From NCBI RefSeq assembly GCF_011303555.1, contig NZ_CP049868.1, forward strand, positions 4,588,001-4,652,000: a stretch of DNA of 64,000 nt, given 5' to 3'. Source of the DNA: Pedobacter sp. HDW13 (GTDB taxonomy: Bacteria; Bacteroidota; Bacteroidia; Sphingobacteriales; Sphingobacteriaceae). Made by a program: the position numbers and the translations under genes. How positions within the stretch are numbered: position 1 is the first letter of the stretch; each line of letters begins with the position of its first letter. The notes under the pieces were generated by a model that saw only the letters and a list, made by a program, of their open reading frames with translations, was not told the DNA's origin and searched no databases. Of the stretch, positions 14,075 through 33,282 are shown in pieces.

Positions 14075-14158
14075 TACTCGGGGCGGGAATCGAACCCGCA
14101 CGCCTTTGAAAGCACAGGATTTTAAGTCCTGCGTGTCTACCAGTTCCACCACCCGAGC
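14075..14158 (-). tRNA. tRNA-Leu (anticodon TAA), copy 1
   Basis: An 84-nt minus-strand tRNA. Acceptor stem GCTCGGG pairs with CCCGAGT. The anticodon stem CAGGA/TCCTG holds loop CTTAAAA, giving anticodon TAA. A long variable arm identifies a class II tRNA, and the T arm is GCGGG-TTCGATT-CCCGC. The 3' CCA is not fully encoded (CAA follows the discriminator A). The cloverleaf is complete, unlike the second copy at 16177-16259. Confidence 0.97.
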
Positions 14159-14226
14159 ATTAGCCGCTACCGATCTCCATCGGCTTGGTTAACTTTAAAA
14201 TAAATGCCTTCGGTTAGGAAGGCATT

Positions 14227-14302
<76 letters not shown>

Positions 14303-14338
14303 AATTGAATACTGATGTGTTGTATTCCGTTGGGGTTG

Positions 14339-14369
14339 CAAATATAGAAATATAAATATCACTTTCAAA
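14339..14369 (-). promoter_or_regulatory. Promoter of tRNA block 1 (Bacteroidota type)
   Basis: Read on the minus strand, TTTG (14366-14369), exactly 19 bp, then TATATTTG (14339-14346), which fits the -33 TTTG / -7 TAnnTTTG consensus. It lies 37 bp upstream of the tRNA-Gly 5' end. The second tRNA block has the equivalent promoter at 16448-16477. Confidence 0.8.
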
Positions 14370-14691
14370 AATAATTTTATTTTTTTTGCGCTGATTGGTA
14401 AACTGAGGGGCTTTTTGCCCTAAATTAACAAGGGTGAGCCCTTATGTTTTTCTCTAATTTTTGATCTAAAATTTAAAGATTATCAGCGAGTTAAAAGCTG
14501 GCTTAACGAACGCAAATGTATGGGCTTATCAAGCTTGAAAAAAAATGAAATTATTTTTTTAGCCTGGTAAAAAGAACCGAAAATTTGTTCCGCTGTTTAG
14601 CGCATTTGCAACAATTGGTAGTTTTTTGAGTAATATTGGTGCCTTTGAATGATCAATATCTGTTAAAAAAACTAAAATAAATTAACCAGCC

Positions 14692-15144
14692 ATGAAATAC
14701 CATACCGTTGTTAAAGCCTTTTACGATTTAAGCCCGGATGAACTTTATCAGATTATGCGGCTTCGGATTGAGGTTTTTGTAATCGAACAACAGTGCTTTT
14801 ATCAGGATGCCGATAACAAAGACCAGCATTGCCACCACTTAATGCTTTTGAAAGATAACGAACTGGTAGCCTATGCGAGGATTGTTCCGGCAGGGCTTTC
14901 ATTTGAAGAAGCCTCTATTGGAAGGGTAATTACCAGTGCGCAGGTGAGGGGTACCGGAGCAGGAAAAATATTAATGAAAGTAGCAATTCAAACCTGCAGG
15001 CAGCTTTTCGGTAATGTTCCGATCCGTATTGGTGCCCAAACTTATGCCAAAGCATTTTATGCGTCGCTGGGTTTTGAAGCATCGGGTAGTGAGTTTATGG
15101 AAGATGGGATACCACATATCGAAATGGTGACTAAACCGCTATAA
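14692..15144 (+). CDS. elaA: ElaA-family GNAT acetyltransferase
   Basis: A 150-residue GNAT-fold acyl-CoA N-acyltransferase. The N-terminal pattern 'LRIEVFVIEQQCFYQDADNKD' is the ElaA signature, followed by 'LVAYARIVPAG', then the acetyl-CoA binding loop 'SAQVRGTGAGKILM', and a C-terminal 'AKAFYASLGFEASGSEFMEDGIPHIEM'. The physiological substrate of ElaA is not established. It lies alone between two copies of a tRNA-Gly/tRNA-Leu block, so recombination between those copies would remove it together with the next gene. Confidence 0.9.
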   Translation: MKYHTVVKAFYDLSPDELYQIMRLRIEVFVIEQQCFYQDADNKDQHCHHLMLLKDNELVAYARIVPAGLSFEEASIGRVITSAQVRGTGAGKILMKVAIQTCRQLFGNVPIRIGAQTYAKAFYASLGFEASGSEFMEDGIPHIEMVTKPL

Positions 15145-15336
15145 AGGCTTTTGTTTGGTGGTTTGATTGCCTTTATCACCAAATACCTTATTAACAGAAA
15201 GATTCTCTAACCATGTAGAATATTTATGGACTACAATAAAGTATATCCCTTTATATAATTAGTATTTTTATTCATGCTTATCTGTTGCTGCCCAGGCAGT
15301 AAACCTGAGGATGGAGTTTAATAAATAGCTAAGATT

Positions 15337-15789
15337 ATGGTAAAAAATAAATTACTACGAATGGACAATGTGGGCATTGTTGTAGAATCACTGGATAATG
15401 CCATCTCATTTTTTTCTGAATTAGGCCTTAAGCTCGAAGGGCGGGGTATGGTAGAAGGAGAGTGGGCAGGGAATGTTACCGGGCTGGGGTCTCAAAGTGT
15501 TGAGATTGCAATGATGGTTACTCCTGATGGTCACAGTAGGCTTGAAATTTCGCGGTTTCTTAGTCCGCCTACTATTGCCGATCACCGAACTGCTCCTGTA
15601 AATGCGCTCGGTTACTTACGCGTTATGTTTACTGTTGAAAATATTGATGAGGTAGTTTCCAGACTCATTAAGCACGGTGCTGAGCTGGTTGGCGAGATCG
15701 TGCAGTACGAAAATTCTTATCGCCTTTGCTACATCCGGGGAACTGAAGGAATACTCATAGGTCTGGCCGAACAGCTGGGTAATAAATAA
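15337..15789 (+). CDS. VOC-superfamily (glyoxalase/dioxygenase-fold) protein
   Basis: A 150-residue protein with the vicinal-oxygen-chelate fold: 'MDNVGIVVESLDNAISFFSELGLKLEGRG' at the start, a central 'LEISRF', and a C-terminal half with 'RVMFTVENIDEVVSRLIKHGAELVGEIVQYENSYRLCYIRGTEGILIGLAEQ'. The usual first-metal His of glyoxalase I is replaced by Asn in 'MDNVGI', so the metal site may be incomplete. Members act on varied small molecules (glyoxalase, antibiotic resistance, isomerases), and function cannot be set from sequence. It lies between the duplicated tRNA blocks. Confidence 0.85.
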   Translation: MVKNKLLRMDNVGIVVESLDNAISFFSELGLKLEGRGMVEGEWAGNVTGLGSQSVEIAMMVTPDGHSRLEISRFLSPPTIADHRTAPVNALGYLRVMFTVENIDEVVSRLIKHGAELVGEIVQYENSYRLCYIRGTEGILIGLAEQLGNK

Positions 15790-15797
15790 GCTGTTAC

Positions 15798-16108
15798 CTA
15801 CTGGCTGGTGTCTGCACCTGCCAGCTTCAGGTTGTCTGTTTTGGTCGGTGAGACACCAACCGATAGGGCACGGATATTTGAATGTTGTTCAGGCATGGAG
15901 AAAGTTTGTTCTATGTACCTACTGGCTGGTGTCTGCAGCTGCCAGCTTTAGGTTGCCTGTTTCGGTCGGTGAGACACCAACCGATAGGGCACGGATATTT
16001 GAATGTTGTTTAGGCCCGGCGAAAATCTGTTCGATGCATCTACTGGCTGGTGTCCACACCTGCCAGCTTCAGGTTATCTACTTCGGTCGGTGAGACACCG
16101 ACCAATAG
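15798..16108. repeat. Tandem repeat with 121-bp period built on the palindromic element
   Basis: The palindromic element starts at 15798, 15919 and 16040, exactly 121 bp apart. The linker 'GGCACGGATATTTGAATGTTG' is also conserved between copies 1 and 2. The third copy runs straight into the terminator and the second tRNA block. An 81-codon open frame across it simply reads the repeat twice and is not a gene. Confidence 0.9.
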
Positions 16109-16130
16109 ATCGAAAACGGCTATAAAACAC

Positions 16131-16159
16131 AAAAGCCTTGATTTTCATCAAGGCTTTTA
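16131..16159 (-). terminator. Intrinsic terminator after tRNA-Leu copy 2
   Basis: AAAAGCCTTGAT-TTTC-ATCAAGGCTTTT, a perfect stem. It lies just downstream of tRNA-Leu copy 2 on the minus strand and is the better-paired counterpart of the hairpin at 14031-14060. Confidence 0.8.
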
Positions 16160-16176
16160 GTTCGATTCTTTTGTTG

Positions 16177-16259
16177 TACTCGGGCGGGAATCGAACCCGC
16201 ACGCCTTTGAAAGCACAGGATTTTAAGTCCTGCGTGTCTACCAGTTCCACCACCCGAGC
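16177..16259 (-). tRNA. tRNA-Leu (anticodon TAA), copy 2, lacking one base of the acceptor/T-arm junction
   Basis: Identical to the copy at 14075-14158 across the body of the tRNA except that the plus-strand GGGG at the acceptor/T-arm junction is GGG (16182-16184). On the tRNA strand CCCGCCCCGAGT becomes CCCGCCCGAGT. Without that base either the acceptor or the T stem loses a pair, which should impair folding and charging. The lesion is the same kind as in six protein genes of this window, so an under-called G run is the likelier explanation; real decay of a redundant copy is possible. Confidence 0.9.
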
Positions 16260-16333
16260 ATTAGCCGCTGCCGATATCCATCGGCTTGGTTAACTTTAAA
16301 ATTAAATGCCTTCTGGTAGGAAGGCATTTTTTT

Positions 16334-16409
<76 letters not shown>

Positions 16410-28136: not shown

Positions 28137-29078
28137 CTAAACCGTCCGCGTAACCTCATCCAGTTTACTATAATCCATTACCATTTTACCAGCCTCGTTG
28201 TGGTGATACATTTTCTCAAAACGGGCGTCCATTTCAATTTCTTCATCCTGGTAGCTGGTGCGTGTGTGGATGGTTTGGGCAAAAGTATCATCGAAGGCCT
28301 TTAACATAACAAAAACCTCAACCTCTGCCAGCTGCAATTCGATAAGCGATTTTTCGAACAACGGACTTTCTTCATTAATTGGGTGCACTAAAGTCCAGTT
28401 TAAAGAAAGGATGCTTATTTTATCGCGTTCGAGATGAAGCGGGTAAAAACGCCTCACTTGTTTATCATCAACCATTTCGTTGTACGACATTACCATCTGC
28501 ACTTCTACTTCAATTAGCTGGTTGCGCCGTAAATTAACCAAACGGCACATTAAGCCATGACCACCCTCATAAGGGGCAATTACCATTTTCTTGCTGAAAC
28601 TAACTTTAGAAGTTGGCCGGCTAAAGCGCCCGTACAATAAACCGGTTGCCAAAGCAAAAGCGAGCAGGCCGAGCATACTTTCGAATGCTGCCAGTACGCT
28701 TGTTACAAAACCTTGTGGCGCAATGTGGCCATAACCAACGGTAGAGATGGTTTGTGCTGAAAAGAAAAAAGCATCGAAAAACTGATCGCGGAGGGTAAGG
28801 CCCTTTGCGCCAACTAAATTTTCAATCCCAATCAGGTTGTACAGAATGGCAAATAAAGTATTTACAAGGAGATAGGTTATGAGAATAACCAAAAAGAAAC
28901 GCGGCCAGCTCATGGTAACCAAACGCGTATAAGTATCATCGAACTTAAACCAGGGCAAGCCCGTACGCTCTATATTGGCCGAACCATCGGGATTGAGCAT
29001 ACGCTGATTTTTGGTTACCGGATTAGACCCGAAACCGAAATCATCATTAAACTGTACTTTTCTTTTGAAGAAAGACAT
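28137..29078 (-). CDS. Inward-rectifier (KirBac-type) potassium channel
   Basis: A 313-residue channel. An N-terminal slide-helix region ends at 'WPRFFLVILITYLLVNTLFAILYNLIG' (TM1), then the pore helix and selectivity filter 'TVGYGHIAPQG', TM2 'SVLAAFESMLGLLAFALATGLLYGRFSRP', and a beta-rich C-terminal cytoplasmic domain with 'LMCRLVNLRRNQLIEVEVQMVMSYNE' and 'LSLNWTLVHPINEESPL', as in KirBac1/3. It transports K+ across the inner membrane. It is divergent from the trp leader; the 60 bp between its start and the leader peptide contain the trp promoter. Confidence 0.93.
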   Translation of the reverse strand: MSFFKRKVQFNDDFGFGSNPVTKNQRMLNPDGSANIERTGLPWFKFDDTYTRLVTMSWPRFFLVILITYLLVNTLFAILYNLIGIENLVGAKGLTLRDQFFDAFFFSAQTISTVGYGHIAPQGFVTSVLAAFESMLGLLAFALATGLLYGRFSRPTSKVSFSKKMVIAPYEGGHGLMCRLVNLRRNQLIEVEVQMVMSYNEMVDDKQVRRFYPLHLERDKISILSLNWTLVHPINEESPLFEKSLIELQLAEVEVFVMLKAFDDTFAQTIHTRTSYQDEEIEMDARFEKMYHHNEAGKMVMDYSKLDEVTRTV

Positions 29079-29094: not shown

Positions 29095-29126
29095 TTTGGA
29101 ATTTTAAAAAACTATATCAATATTTG
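29095..29126 (+). promoter_or_regulatory. Probable promoter of the trp leader/operon
   Basis: TTTG at 29095-29098, 20 bp, then AATATTTG at 29119-29126 (one mismatch to TAnnTTTG). It lies 12 bp before the leader peptide start. Confidence 0.55.
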
Positions 29127-29138
29127 CTTTATACAAAC

Positions 29139-29192
29139 ATGATAATTAAAAACTTAAATAACAATTGGTGGTGGCATAACGAAATTCGTTAG
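29139..29192 (+). CDS. trpL: trp operon leader peptide with three consecutive Trp codons
   Basis: A 17-codon open frame, MIIKNLNNNWWWHNEIR, ending TAG at 29190-29192. Three adjacent TGG codons (29166-29174) are highly improbable by chance in AT-rich DNA. They are followed by the nested hairpins expected of an attenuator and, after the intrinsic terminator at 29240-29269, by trpD. Ribosome stalling at the Trp codons when charged tRNA-Trp is scarce would cover the start of the AACGAA/TTCGTT hairpin (29178-29190) and free the following segment for antitermination. No Shine-Dalgarno is obvious, which is normal for Bacteroidota. Function is inferred from layout, with strong internal consistency. 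Confidence 0.88.
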   Translation: MIIKNLNNNWWWHNEIR

Positions 29193-29269
29193 GCAAATTC
29201 TATTGTTATATATTTTAAAATATTTTATACACAACGAAGAGGATTGCCCAAAAAGCAATCCTTTTTTTT
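29178..29269 (+). promoter_or_regulatory. trp transcription attenuator (alternative hairpins)
   Basis: Hairpin 1:2 is AACGAA (29178-29183) with TTCGTT (29185-29190). Segment GGCAA (29192-29196) can pair with TTGCC (29244-29248), which would open the terminator; a second option is TTCGTT with AACGAA at 29233-29238. The terminator stem is AGGATTGC (29240-29247) with GCAATCCT (29255-29262) and a run of eight T. This is the 1:2, 2:3, 3:4 logic of classical trp attenuation, read from the sequence by hand; folding energies were not computed. Confidence 0.8.
29240..29269 (+). terminator. Intrinsic terminator of the trp leader
   Basis: AGGATTGC-CCAAAAA-GCAATCCT followed by T8. It has no upstream plus-strand gene other than the leader peptide, so it acts as a premature terminator in front of trpD. 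Confidence 0.88.
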
Positions 29270-29297
29270 GTGGTATTTTTTAACAACGCCCCGTTTA

Positions 29298-29439
29298 GTG
29301 TCTTCACGGAACGGAGTTTAAATAAATGGTTCGTGAAGACACGAACCATAATGAAATAAAGATATAAATGAAAAATGAACCACAGATGGACACAGATACA
29401 CAGAGATTTTATCCGTGTTCATCCTTTTTATCTGTGGTT
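29298..29439. repeat. Two palindromic repeats between the trp attenuator and trpD
   Basis: The first is GTGTCTTCACG (29298-29308) with CGTGAAGACAC (29332-29342). The second is AACCACAGAT (29378-29387) with ATCTGTGGTT (29430-29439), enclosing 'ACACAGAT' and 'ATCCGTGTTCATCC', a dispersed repeat type seen in many bacteria. They occupy most of the space where trpE and trpG would be in a complete operon. Confidence 0.75.
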
Positions 29440-29459: not shown

Positions 29460-30449
29460 ATGAAAAAAATATTAAACCATTTATTCGAGAACAAGAGCTT
29501 TAGTAGGGAAGAGGCAAAAAACATACTGATCTCCATATCAGAAGGTGCTTTCAATTCTTCGCAAATTGCCGCTTTTATAACCGCTTATGCCATGCGCAAC
29601 ATTACCGTGCAGGAGTTACAGGGCTTTAGAGATGCCATGCTGGATATGTGCGTGAAAGTTAACCTTTCGGCTTACGAACTGATTGACCTTTGCGGTACCG
29701 GTGGCGATGGCAAAGACACTTTTAACATTTCTACCTTATCATCGTTTGTGGTGGCAGGTGCAGGTCATCATGTAGCCAAACATGGTAATTATGGTGTTTC
29801 CTCAGGCTGCGGTTCATCAAACGTAATGGAGTACCTGGGCTATAGTTTTACCAATGATGAGGATACTTTGAAACGCAATTTAGATGCCGCCGGTATTTGC
29901 TTTCTGCATGCACCACTTTTTAACCCGGCCATGAAAATAGTAGCGCCGATTAGAAAAGAGCTGGGCGTGAAAACCTTTTTCAATATGCTGGGACCAATGG
30001 TTAACCCGGGGCAACCCAGGCACCAGATGGTTGGCGTGTTTAGTTTAGAACTGGCCCGTTTATATGCCTATTTATATCAGGATACCGATAAAAACTATAC
30101 CATTATGCACGCGCTGGAGGGCTACGATGAAATTTCGCTAACCTGCGATGTGAAAACCTTTAGCAACAAAGGCGAACAGATTTTAACCCTCGATGATATG
30201 GGCTTTGAAAGGGTAGATGTAAATGCGATTAAAGGTGGCGATACGGTAGAATCATCAGCTAAAATATTTATGGATGTATTAAATGGTGAGGCAACAAGGG
30301 TACAGAACGATGTAGTGCTGTGCAACTCGGCACTGGCCATCAGGACCATAAAGCCTGAACAGTCATTCGCCGATTGTTATTACGAAGCTGAGGAATCGCT
30401 GATGAGCAAAAAAGCACTTAACAGTTTTAAACAACTACTGGCATGCTAA
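29460..30449 (+). CDS. trpD: Anthranilate phosphoribosyltransferase
   Basis: Second step of the tryptophan branch: anthranilate plus PRPP to phosphoribosylanthranilate. The 329-residue protein starts at the ATG at 29460 (an upstream TTG at 29448 is less likely). It has the N-terminal helical domain 'LFENKSFSREEAKNILISI', the PRPP site 'DLCGTGGDGKDTFNISTLSSFV', 'HGNYGVSSGCGSSNVMEYLGY', 'FLHAPLFNPAMKIVAPIRKELGVKTFFNMLGPMVNP' and 'LEGYDEISL'. It is the first gene after the attenuator and overlaps trpF by seven bases. No trpE/trpG lies upstream. Confidence 0.96.
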   Translation: MKKILNHLFENKSFSREEAKNILISISEGAFNSSQIAAFITAYAMRNITVQELQGFRDAMLDMCVKVNLSAYELIDLCGTGGDGKDTFNISTLSSFVVAGAGHHVAKHGNYGVSSGCGSSNVMEYLGYSFTNDEDTLKRNLDAAGICFLHAPLFNPAMKIVAPIRKELGVKTFFNMLGPMVNPGQPRHQMVGVFSLELARLYAYLYQDTDKNYTIMHALEGYDEISLTCDVKTFSNKGEQILTLDDMGFERVDVNAIKGGDTVESSAKIFMDVLNGEATRVQNDVVLCNSALAIRTIKPEQSFADCYYEAEESLMSKKALNSFKQLLAC

Positions 30450-31075
30450 AGTTAAAAGTTTGTGGCATGCGTTTGGCGGCAAATATTGCTGCGGTTGCAG
30501 AGCTGCAACCTGATTATTTGGGCTTTATCTTCTATGATAAATCGCCGAGATTAATCAGCGATGTTTCTGCAGAACTGATCAAATACATTCCTGCTGAAAT
30601 TAAAACCATTGGTGTTTTCGTAAATGAAGATATCGAAAAGGTAAAAGAGAAAGTAAGTACTTTTAAGTTGAAAGCCGTTCAGTTGCATGGGAACGAATCG
30701 CCGGAGTATTGTGCAGGGTTAAAGGCCGGTTTTCCAGATGTAGAGGTGATTAAAGCTTTTGGCATAGATGAAGACTTCGATTTTGCCGTTTTGGCAGCTT
30801 ACTTAGATGTAGCAGATTATTTTCTGTTCGATACCAAAACAAAAGCACATGGCGGATCGGGGAAAACATTTAATTGGTCTGTTTTAGACCGGTATACTTA
30901 TAACAAACCCTACTTTTTAAGCGGTGGAATTGATTTAGAACATGCCACAGCGATAAAAAATATAAGCGACGATCGTTTATATGCACTAGACATCAATAGC
31001 CGCTTCGAAACCGAGCCCGGGCTGAAAGATGCAGTGAAGATTAAAGAATTTATAAAAGAAATGAGCACGAAATAA
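30443..31075 (+). CDS. trpF: Phosphoribosylanthranilate isomerase
   Basis: Converts phosphoribosylanthranilate to CdRP (third tryptophan step). The 210-residue (beta/alpha)8 protein begins 'LKLKVCGMR' with the catalytic Cys, and has 'DYLGFIFYDKSPR', 'IGVFVNED', 'AVQLHGNESPEYC', the catalytic Asp in 'FLFDTKTKAHGGSGKTFNW', and 'PYFLSGGIDLEHA' for phosphate binding. The ATG lies inside the end of trpD (7-bp overlap), so translation is coupled. The normal intervening trpC is missing. Confidence 0.96.
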   Translation: MLKLKVCGMRLAANIAAVAELQPDYLGFIFYDKSPRLISDVSAELIKYIPAEIKTIGVFVNEDIEKVKEKVSTFKLKAVQLHGNESPEYCAGLKAGFPDVEVIKAFGIDEDFDFAVLAAYLDVADYFLFDTKTKAHGGSGKTFNWSVLDRYTYNKPYFLSGGIDLEHATAIKNISDDRLYALDINSRFETEPGLKDAVKIKEFIKEMSTK

Positions 31076-31226: not shown

Positions 31227-32408
31227 ATGAAATACAAAGTAAACGAAAAAGGATATTACGGAGATTTTGGAGGCGCTTACATCCCCGAAATGCTTTATCC
31301 GAACGTAGAAGAATTGCGTCAAAACTATTTAAAGATTATTGATGATGCCGATTTTCAAAAGGAATTTCATCAATTGTTAAAAGATTATGTTGGGCGCCCT
31401 TCGCCACTGTATCTGGCAAAAAGATACTCTGAAAAGTACGGCGCTAATATTTTTCTTAAAAGAGAAGATTTAAACCACACCGGTGCGCACAAGATCAACA
31501 ATACCATCGGACAGATTTTGCTGGCCGAAAAACTGGGTAAAAAGCGGATTATCGCCGAAACAGGTGCTGGTCAGCATGGTGTAGCTACCGCAACGGTTTG
31601 TGCTTTGCGTAACCTGGAGTGTGTAATTTATATGGGCGAGGTAGATATCGAACGCCAGGCACCAAACGTAGCCCGCATGAAAATGCTGGGTGCAAAGGTA
31701 GTTCCGGCAAGTTCGGGTAGTAAAACCTTAAAAGATGCCACTAACGAGGCTATGCGCGATTGGATTAACAATCCGGTTGATACGCATTACATTATCGGTT
31801 CGGTAGTTGGACCACATCCTTACCCTGATATGGTGGCTATTTTTCAATCGATCATCTCAGAAGAAACCAAAAAACAGTTAATAGAGCAAACCGGAAGCGA
31901 TCAACCTGATTACGTTTTAGCTTGTGTAGGTGGTGGTAGCAATGCCATGGGCATGTTCTATCATTTTATGGATGATGAAAATGTGAAACTAATTGCTGTA
32001 GAAGCTGCGGGTAAGGGTGTTTCGAGTGGATTTTCGGCCGCAACAACTTATTTAGGTAAGGAAGGCGTTTTACACGGTAGCCGAAGTATTTTAATGCAAA
32101 CAGAAGACGGGCAGGTGGTAGAGCCGCATTCGGTTTCTGCCGGACTGGATTATCCGGGTATTGGTCCGCAACATGCCCATTTGTTTAAAACAGGTCGCGG
32201 GCGATATGTTTCTATTACCGACGAAGAAAGTTTAGAAGCGGGTTTATTGTGTACGCAACTGGAAGGGATTATTCCGGCGATTGAAAGCGCACACGCATTG
32301 GCTTACCTCGAAAAAATGGAATTTAAAGGAGGCGAAAATGTAGTGGTTTGCCTATCTGGCCGTGGCGACAAGGATCTGGATACTTATATTAAGTACTTTA
32401 ATTTATAG
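31227..32408 (+). CDS. trpB: Tryptophan synthase beta chain
   Basis: Condenses indole with serine. The 393-residue PLP enzyme has '[13 protein letters not shown]', the PLP lysine Lys89 in '[15 protein letters not shown]', '[27 protein letters not shown]', the phosphate loop '[15 protein letters not shown]', and '[17 protein letters not shown]'. Sequence and length are those of the TrpB1 type that works with TrpA. It is separated from trpF and trpA by palindromic repeats but transcribed in the same direction. Confidence 0.97.
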
Positions 32409-32413
32409 AAAGC

Positions 32414-32499
32414 CGTCATTGCGAGGCACGAAGCAATCTTAATGCTTTGGGTTAACGTGTAGCGATTGTAGTAGGATTGCTTCGTGCCTCGCAATGACG
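32414..32499. repeat. Palindromic repeat GTCATTGCGAGG...CCTCGCAATGAC between trpB and trpA
   Basis: The ends CGTCATTGCGAGGCACGAAGC and GCTTCGTGCCTCGCAATGACG are 21-bp perfect complements. The right end runs into the first codons of the longer trpA reading frame. Confidence 0.88.
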
Positions 32500-32514
32500 A
32501 AAATGATAGAAAAA

Positions 32515-33282
32515 ATGAACAGAATTAAACAACTCTTCCAGGAGAAGAAAAATATATTATCAATTTACTATACCGCTGGTTACCCTAACCTAGGCGATAC
32601 CATTCAGATTGCTGAGGCCTTGCAAAAATCGGGTGCTGATATCCTGGAAATCGGATTTCCTTATTCGGATCCTGTTGCCGATGGTCCGGTGATTCAGGCG
32701 AGCAGCAAGCAATCTTTAGATCAGGGTATGACCTTAAAGGTGCTTTTCGAACAGCTTAAAGATTTACGTAAAAATGTTACCATCCCTGTTTTACTGATGG
32801 GTTATGTAAACCCTGTGCTGCAGTTTGGTGTAGAAAATTTTTGTAAGGCTTGCGCCGAAGTAGGGGTAGATGGTTGTATTGTGCCCGATTTACCGATGGC
32901 GGAATATGAGGAGCTTTATCAGGATTGCTTTGAACAACACAACCTGAGCAATGTATTTCTGATTACGCCACAAACGGCAGAAGAGCGCATCCATAAAATT
33001 GACGGCTTAACCAATGGATTTATTTATTTGTTATCATCGTCGGCTACAACAGGTAAGAATTTAGAAGTGGGCAATACCACCGAAGCTTATTTTAGCCGTA
33101 TAAAAGAGATGAACCTGAAAAATCCGACTATGATTGGCTTCGGGATCAGCGATAAACAAACTTTCGATAAAGCCTGCTCGTACGCGAATGGTGCAATTAT
33201 CGGTACTGCTTTCGTTAAAGCTATTGCTGATGGCAATTTAGAAGAAAGTGTAAGTAGTTTTATGAAGAAGTTTAGGGACTAA
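32515..33282 (+). CDS. trpA: Tryptophan synthase alpha chain
   Basis: Cleaves indole-3-glycerol phosphate and channels indole to TrpB. I chose the ATG at 32515 ('MNRIKQLFQEKKN...'), because in-frame starts at 32494 and 32503 lie in or next to the inserted repeat. The 255-residue barrel has the catalytic Glu and Asp in 'ILEIGFPYSDPVADGPVIQ', 'VLLMGYVNPVLQFG', 'DGCIVPDLPMAE', 'FIYLLSSSATTGK' and 'IGFGISDKQTFDKA'. It is the last gene of the trp operon. Confidence 0.96.
   Translation: MNRIKQLFQEKKNILSIYYTAGYPNLGDTIQIAEALQKSGADILEIGFPYSDPVADGPVIQASSKQSLDQGMTLKVLFEQLKDLRKNVTIPVLLMGYVNPVLQFGVENFCKACAEVGVDGCIVPDLPMAEYEELYQDCFEQHNLSNVFLITPQTAEERIHKIDGLTNGFIYLLSSSATTGKNLEVGNTTEAYFSRIKEMNLKNPTMIGFGISDKQTFDKACSYANGAIIGTAFVKAIADGNLEESVSSFMKKFRD

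Follow-up and report, generated by a model that had tools for sequence, protein, structure and literature searches.

Positions 29139-29269 of the window, by which we mean the whole 64-kb stretch of Pedobacter sp. HDW13 DNA analysed here, very probably act as a ribosome-mediated transcription attenuator for the trpDFBA genes that reads charged tRNA-Trp; judging from the sequence and from modelling, we put the probability of this reading at about 0.92. The parts of the element, their order, their conservation and their mutually exclusive pairings are established by sequence and comparison. Regulatory Trp codons are followed by an antiterminator and a terminator that cannot form together, which is the arrangement that defines classical trp attenuation. 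The first-pass annotation had suggested that the layout follows this classical scheme, and the suggestion is supported by folding with simulated ribosome stalls, by conservation before trpD, by compensatory changes and by searches for TrpR and TRAP (genome) and T-box (window) in which none of them was found.

Parts of the probable attenuator

The features of the element are as follows (all on the + strand, positions of the window):

29139..29192, +, leader peptide ORF MIIKNLNNNWWWHNEIR, without a Shine-Dalgarno-like motif (from sequence)
29158..29209, +, 1:2 stem, 29158-29165 with 29202-29209, predicted by folding to tie up region 2 in ribosome-free RNA
29166..29174, +, three regulatory Trp codons, TGG TGG TGG (from sequence; W-W-W in 79/79 leaders found before trpD)
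29177..29191, +, post-Trp hairpin extending into the stop codon (from folding; two-sided compensatory change in a sister lineage)
29192..29248, +, antiterminator 2:3, GGCAA.TTCT.TTGTT.TATA with TATA...AACGA..AGGATTGCC (from folding with a simulated stall; covariation in a sister lineage)
29236..29269, +, intrinsic terminator 3:4 with T8 (terminator found in 94/94 leaders)

The ORF encodes 17 residues, from the ATG at 29139 to the TAG at 29190-29192. The leader peptide with its three adjacent Trp codons, the hairpin directly after them (by folding) and the intrinsic terminator with T8 had all been read from the letters in the first-pass annotation, and each was recovered at the positions listed. 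The terminator stem GAAGAGGATTGC/GCAATCCTTTTT occupies 29236-29266 and the T8 29262-29269. The alternative pairing that had been noted between GGCAA (29192-29196) and TTGCC (29244-29248) can also form, but it is merely the base of a longer, imperfect antiterminator that spans 29192-29248. When 29130-29285 was folded as a whole, a free energy of -35.8 kcal/mol was obtained (z = -4.6), and none of 200 shuffled sequences was as stable. In the 64-kb window just one short ORF starting with ATG has three Trp codons in a row, and a terminator lies within 110 nt 3' of it.

From the T-run to the trpD start (29460) there are 190 nt, and inverted repeats occur at 29295-29439 within this interval. Across the 79 named loci described below, the leader stop and the trpD match are separated by 72 to 471 nt, and the intervening sequence looks repeat-like in several of them.

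Conservation of the leader before trpD

Among named relatives, the TrpD sequences closest to that of the window come from Pedobacter species (best identity 97%). Within the 700 nt 5' of trpD we looked for short ORFs that begin with ATG and hold two Trp codons, either adjacent or one apart; a W-W-W leader was present in 79 of the 80 named loci, the 80th (L091) being cut by the end of its contig. The check proposed in the first-pass annotation, conservation of the Trp codons and hairpins in related genomes, was thus run and did not refute the element. The full set comprised 94 leaders, namely the 79 named ones, the window, 13 fetched loci and L037, of which the last 14 were chosen by TGG TGG TGG; some fetched loci duplicate named ones, and 82 of the 94 leaders are distinct. 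A terminator was found in all 94.

At E up to 0.01, a covariance model built from 38 leaders matched 130 of 151 genomes of the family and 20 of 25 genera, a count that includes the window's own genome and the other contributors to the model. Among the 20 listed family genomes without a match (21 in all), 16 are 2.4 Mb or smaller, and such small genomes may lack the trp pathway. In 13 other genera 14 places were read, and every one of them has a leader rich in Trp (WWW, WW, WRW or WLW); a TrpD-like start follows 13 of them, the contig of the remaining one ending too soon, and two of these downstream proteins were confirmed as TrpD. The exact 16-base pattern formed by the Trp codons and the following bases occurs in 63 of 251 family genomes, whereas the reversed pattern occurs in 1.

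These data bear on whether the structure is just a plain terminator for some other transcript, preceded by chance by an untranslated Trp-rich ORF, which we regard as very improbable. Intrinsic terminators are common, and the second match of the trpD-leader model in this genome, at C1:1095160, turned out to be such an ordinary terminator behind a gene and was rejected as a candidate. However, 150 simulated windows of the same dinucleotide make-up produced 10 such WWW ORFs, none of them with a terminator, whereas 79 of the 80 named trpD loci have the W-W-W leader, always together with a terminator. Moreover, the upstream ORF (28137-29078) is divergent, so there is no long upstream gene to end, and the compensatory changes in the pairings, to which we now turn, would be needless for a plain terminator.

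Covariation in the competing pairings

The covariation counts cover the post-Trp hairpin, the 2:3 and the 3:4 pairing, while the 1:2 stem is based on folding. Leaders were sorted into lineages by the letters of region 2, with the arms anchored on GTRA/GGC(A) and TTGC(C). Lineage A (38 distinct leaders) pairs GGCAA with TTGCC, four pairs being kept in all leaders and the fifth in 33. Lineage B (32 distinct) pairs GTAACC(C) with (G)GGTTGC; seven pairs are kept in all, the eighth in 21 and the ninth in 14. In lineage C (10 distinct), GGC(A/G)A faces TTGCC and every pair is kept. Two leaders fall outside these three lineages. Anchored pairs are paired by construction; an unanchored count was made separately on aligned lineage B sequences. 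Antiterminator pair 7, which lies outside the anchors, is kept in every one of the 32 lineage B leaders, 25 having C-G and 7 having T-A; pair 5 shows a one-sided change.

The unanchored alignment, A3, contains 17 of the 19 lineage B sequences of alignment A1 (from 32 distinct), L116 and L122 being excluded for their shifted hairpin. In A3, 97.8% of the 2:3 cells pair, as against 36-57% in slid registers, and both the covariation score and the share of paired cells lie above those of all 500 shuffles. Two-sided pairs in 2:3 were as numerous in 49 of the 500 shuffles, and in one slid register the cells with a two-sided change are equally many. For the post-Trp hairpin, 100% of cells pair and the covariation score again exceeds all 500 shuffles. 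One hairpin pair changes on both sides: the third base of a His codon and its partner around the stop codon are C-G in 10 and U-A in 7 of the 17 sequences, a single two-sided pair that was equalled by 458 of 500 shuffles. The His codon is CAC in 21 and CAT in 11 of the 32 lineage B leaders, a synonymous difference, and it is hard to explain by selection on the peptide why this third base should be coupled to its partner. The 3:4 terminator stem showed one-sided changes and no two-sided change in the A3 subset of lineage B. For all of these statistics, the sequences are related rather than independent and the counts are of sequences, not of separate events.

Pairing under simulated ribosome stalls

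To follow the pairing as the ribosome moves, the RNA covered by the ribosome was removed, its edge being placed 16 nt from the P-site codon (first base), and the transcript was stopped before region 4. In the window, the five GGCAA/TTGCC pairs form with probabilities of 0.08-0.16 in the ribosome-free RNA. These rise to 0.98, 0.99, 0.996, 0.78 and 0.52 once a ribosome occupies any one of the Trp codons; under a stall, the basal G/C pairs of the antiterminator have values of at least 0.98, compared to about 0.15 without a ribosome. The antiterminator of the stalled state is a long, imperfect hairpin of -10.5 kcal/mol. A ribosome placed at the stop codon covers the GGCAA arm. In the full-length transcript, once region 4 has been made, the terminator is thermodynamically favoured in every ribosome state, so the choice must fall during transcription. 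The switch must therefore be kinetic, as in the classical model, the kinetics being an assumption here.

Similar behaviour was obtained across the leaders. The 2:3 pairing exceeds 0.8 under a stall in all 82 distinct leaders, and without a ribosome it is below 0.5 in 74 and at least 0.5 in 8. This measure is permissive, shuffled spacers averaging 0.36-0.55 depending on the lineage; 73 of the 82 leaders were equalled by at most 2 of 40 spacer shuffles, and one (L158) by 13. With the ribosome at the stop codon, modelled with a crude footprint, the same permissive measure drops below 0.2 in 31 of 82 leaders (lineage A 27/38, B 3/32, C 0/10, D 1/2), and 0.27 is left for the window. This weak result for stop-codon masking makes us slightly less confident of the mechanism as a whole. 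Swapping region 2 between lineages was also tried as evidence, but the test saturated, discriminated poorly and was set aside.

Relationship to Bacteroid-trp and other RNA families

The first-pass annotation had allowed that the element might be a homologue of a family it could not name. The family is apparently RF01692, Bacteroid-trp, which aligns with 29119-29248 over model positions 1-131 of 131, with a score of 41.3 bits against a gathering score of 49 (E 0.0015 and 0.00073 in two permissive searches); an Rfam scan of the window at curated cut-offs called nothing at the attenuator. The attenuator is the best RF01692 place in the whole genome, and we interpret it as a diverged member of the family. 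As the score is under the cut-off, this assignment is based on the full-length alignment, the place and the architecture. At E up to 1, RF01692 matched in 27 of 59 genomes of relatives (own included), and in none of the 59 did it pass the cut-off. Of the 30 listed places (own two included), 25 fall on a Trp-Trp leader; the weak matches L003 and L029-L032 have no Trp-Trp leader by the text test and were discarded, and the weak matches L004 and L005 were judged from the ORF scan alone.

In a draw of 198 genomes from the phylum, RF01692 matched 17 genomes at E up to 0.001; in 15 of these the cut-off is passed, and all 17 belong to one family other than that of the window; the control genome, Bacteroides ihuae, also scored over the cut-off. 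All 17 have a WWW leader (for example MQTILNNTWWWNNLRQTS). The gene behind is trpE-like in 13 (10 long TrpE-like ORFs and 3 with a TrpE motif), and in the other 4 the downstream gene could not be read. The trpE model was the best for four proteins behind these matches and for three proteins behind Trp leaders in other families of the class, as it was for one protein from the window's family and for the window genome's own TrpE, each of them under its curated cut-off.

With RF01692 the window element has in common the full-length alignment, a Trp-rich leader peptide upstream of trp genes, a stem around and after the Trp codons and its occurrence in Bacteroidetes. It differs in that the stronger matches precede trpE where this could be read, whereas the window element precedes trpD; the position before trpE is a feature of the matches read and is not known to belong to Rfam's definition. 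Regions 2 and 3 are also of other sequence, and the window genome has a second Trp-leader attenuator (see below). Table 1 of Weinberg et al. 2010 (PMC2864571) lists Bacteroid-trp as a likely cis-regulatory RNA of Bacteroidetes, and a passage in a 2019 paper (PMC6414381) mentions it before the trp operon of Flavobacterium psychrophilum.

A further family, RF00513 Trp_leader, gave 21 bits against a cut-off of 41, and the element is not assigned to it. The tryptophan operon leader works through Trp codons combined with alternative 2:3 and 3:4 pairing, both of which the window element shares; unlike Trp_leader, it has no Shine-Dalgarno-like motif and a short predicted 5' UTR. The other weak Rfam matches (E up to 10) were each well under their cut-offs and were taken as chance.

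The split trp pathway and a second probable attenuator before trpE

The genes downstream of the terminator are (all on the + strand):

29460..30449, +, trpD, the first controlled gene (TIGR01245, 295.6 and 296 bits, cut-off 199)
30443..31075, +, trpF (NF002298, its best model, 170.6 bits, below the cut-off of 215)
31227..32408, +, trpB (TIGR00263, over cut-off)
32494..33282, +, trpA (TIGR00262, over cut-off)

The initial description of a complete attenuator in front of the trp operon holds in so far as an attenuator precedes trpDFBA, but the pathway is split, and these genes make up just one part of it; an attenuator also precedes the rest. From C1:2599033 onward, about 2 Mb from trpDFBA, come trpE, a chorismate-mutase-like gene, trpG and trpC. 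Upstream of trpE we found the leader MINNIHTWLWQSNSKTDCAGCV, with the motif W-L-W, followed by a strong terminator (L034 1255-1406; G000 C1:2598823 onward). The coding sequence at L034 2874-3182, between trpE and trpG, specifies a 102-residue member of the chorismate mutase / isochorismate lyase family (NF005475, over cut-off).

A leader and a terminator were seen in all 70 trpE loci read in the genus (own included; 118 genomes with a match), 69 of the leaders being found by one search and the 70th, L205, read directly from its sequence. The motif in these leaders is W-L-W, W-Q-W or W-H-W. In some close relatives the 3' part of the leader is in another frame with the RNA almost unchanged, which suggests that the RNA is kept rather than the peptide tail. 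A stretch near TTTATCAACCTAAACC, located after the leader ORF and before the terminator, is nearly invariant in most trpE leaders (e.g. L160-L229) and forms at best a weak hairpin.

In simulations, a stall at the second Trp codon drew the 5' arm of the terminator upstream in all 59 distinct trpE leaders, and with the ribosome at the stop codon this upstream draw was below 0.5 in 49. Without a ribosome it was below 0.5 in just 28 of the 59, and the default state is accordingly less clear than for trpD. The trpE leader model matched 82 of 151 family genomes and 13 of 25 genera at E up to 0.01, and each of the 10 places read in four other genera (the stronger matches) has a WWW or WW leader before a TrpE-like start. 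RF01692 was absent from the matches of the trpE leader at E up to 1, none of which reached its cut-off. In the genus g25 the trpD and trpE leaders are alike, both models matching the same stretch at 8 listed places (one of them, L258, was read as a trpE leader); from the sequences, this likeness hints at common descent.

The leader might also do more than act in cis: once terminated, its RNA, or else the peptide after release, could influence the trpEGC half in trans. The precedent is trpL/rnTrpL/peTrpL of Sinorhizobium meliloti, likewise a Trp attenuator: as described in PMC7298713, its leader RNA begins at the leader peptide ATG, trpE(G) and trpDC are on separate transcripts, and rnTrpL, the attenuated leader RNA, destabilises trpDC mRNA in trans. 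The terminated RNA would be a small RNA here too, with a predicted length of about 135-140 nt. However, in S. meliloti the attenuator RNA of one operon acts on another in trans, whereas here the trpEGC half has an attenuator of its own, so that control in trans is not needed. We consider a role in trans quite unlikely, and favour attenuation in cis for each half.

Promoter and start of translation

Two candidate promoter elements precede the leader:

29095..29098, +, TTTG, candidate -33 element (by comparison with the consensus TTTG / TAnnTTTG)
29119..29126, +, AATATTTG, candidate -7 element whose first base departs from TAnnTTTG (start site predicted)

The promoter consensus of the phylum is TTTG / TAnnTTTG, according to PMC7366714. 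AATATTTG ends 12 nt before the leader ATG, and the 5' UTR would hence be short. Every one of the 94 trpD leaders has a TTTG box 5-17 nt ahead of its ATG, and 68 of 69 trpE leaders have one 6-7 nt ahead of theirs; together with the phylum consensus, these positions predict leader mRNAs that begin with the AUG or close to it. Of the 5' UTRs in Bacteroides, only about 3.7% are shorter than 10 nt, and mRNAs of the phylum are described as being without classical Shine-Dalgarno signals (both from PMC7366714). AGGA, GGAG or GAGG within 16 nt was found in none of the 94 trpD leaders and none of the 69 trpE leaders. A sigma-70 scan gave nothing above chance, as expected for the phylum.

The divergent gene upstream (28137-29078, minus strand) is ion-channel-like, with weak matches only. 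Only 60 bp separate its start from the leader ATG, and several relatives have this gene start next to their leader as well; the promoters of the two probably overlap.

Other regulators of trp genes

TRAP, T-box and TrpR are known to control trp genes in other bacteria. If attenuation by TRAP or a T-box, or repression by TrpR, operated here, the leader ORF would be incidental. Extracts from PMC4027176 and PMC11255114 describe such systems governing trp genes in other bacteria, yet none of the three was found, the genome being searched for TrpR and TRAP and the window for T-box. At E up to 0.001, neither TrpR nor TRAP had a match in the 99.94% complete genome, whereas the controls matched Escherichia coli and Bacillus subtilis for TrpR and Bacillus subtilis for TRAP. 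A T-box was not found in the Rfam scan of the window at gathering scores, which only four tRNAs reach. We judge this alternative to be extremely improbable and retain ribosome-mediated attenuation as the preferred reading.

The four tRNA genes are on the minus strand at 14075-16409, in two pairs about 2.1 kb apart, and two of them have identical scores; the arrangement looks like a duplication.

Proposed mechanism and significance

In the proposed mechanism, RNA polymerase would start a few nt before the leader ATG with a ribosome close behind. When Trp-tRNA is plentiful, the ribosome would reach the stop codon at 29190 and cover the start of region 2 (from 29192), leaving region 3 to pair with region 4, and transcription would end at the T-run. 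When Trp-tRNA is scarce, the ribosome would stall at 29166-29174 and mask region 1 just upstream in the leader ORF; region 2, left unpaired, could then capture region 3 ahead of the synthesis of region 4, and the polymerase would continue into trpDFBA. If there is no translation, the 1:2 pairing would tie up region 2 and termination would follow. The second attenuator, of like logic, would make trpEGC answer to this signal as well.

The element before trpD is of a known kind, and the paired attenuators are the more interesting part. No trp attenuator in Pedobacter was found in the open-licence literature, which was searched mostly without the genus name, and what appears to be new is that the element stands before trpD family-wide and that trpE has an attenuator too. 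Our results extend a computationally predicted RNA family to a bacterial family that the Rfam cut-off missed, with covariation backing the post-Trp hairpin and the antiterminator.

As a tentative proposal, which we hold to be possible rather than probable, the split trp pathway across the family around Pedobacter may be linked by two related, nearly leaderless attenuators. An ancestral Bacteroid-trp would have been duplicated and the Trp-codon dosages would have drifted in Pedobacter (W-W-W for trpDFBA and W-x-W for trpEGC), so that the halves respond at different Trp-tRNA charging with no Trp repressor. Two attenuators that use the same tRNA and differ in the number and spacing of their Trp codons offer a natural case for the coordination of a split pathway. 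If the proposal is true, the anthranilate-making and the indole-making halves would answer different degrees of Trp-tRNA charging.
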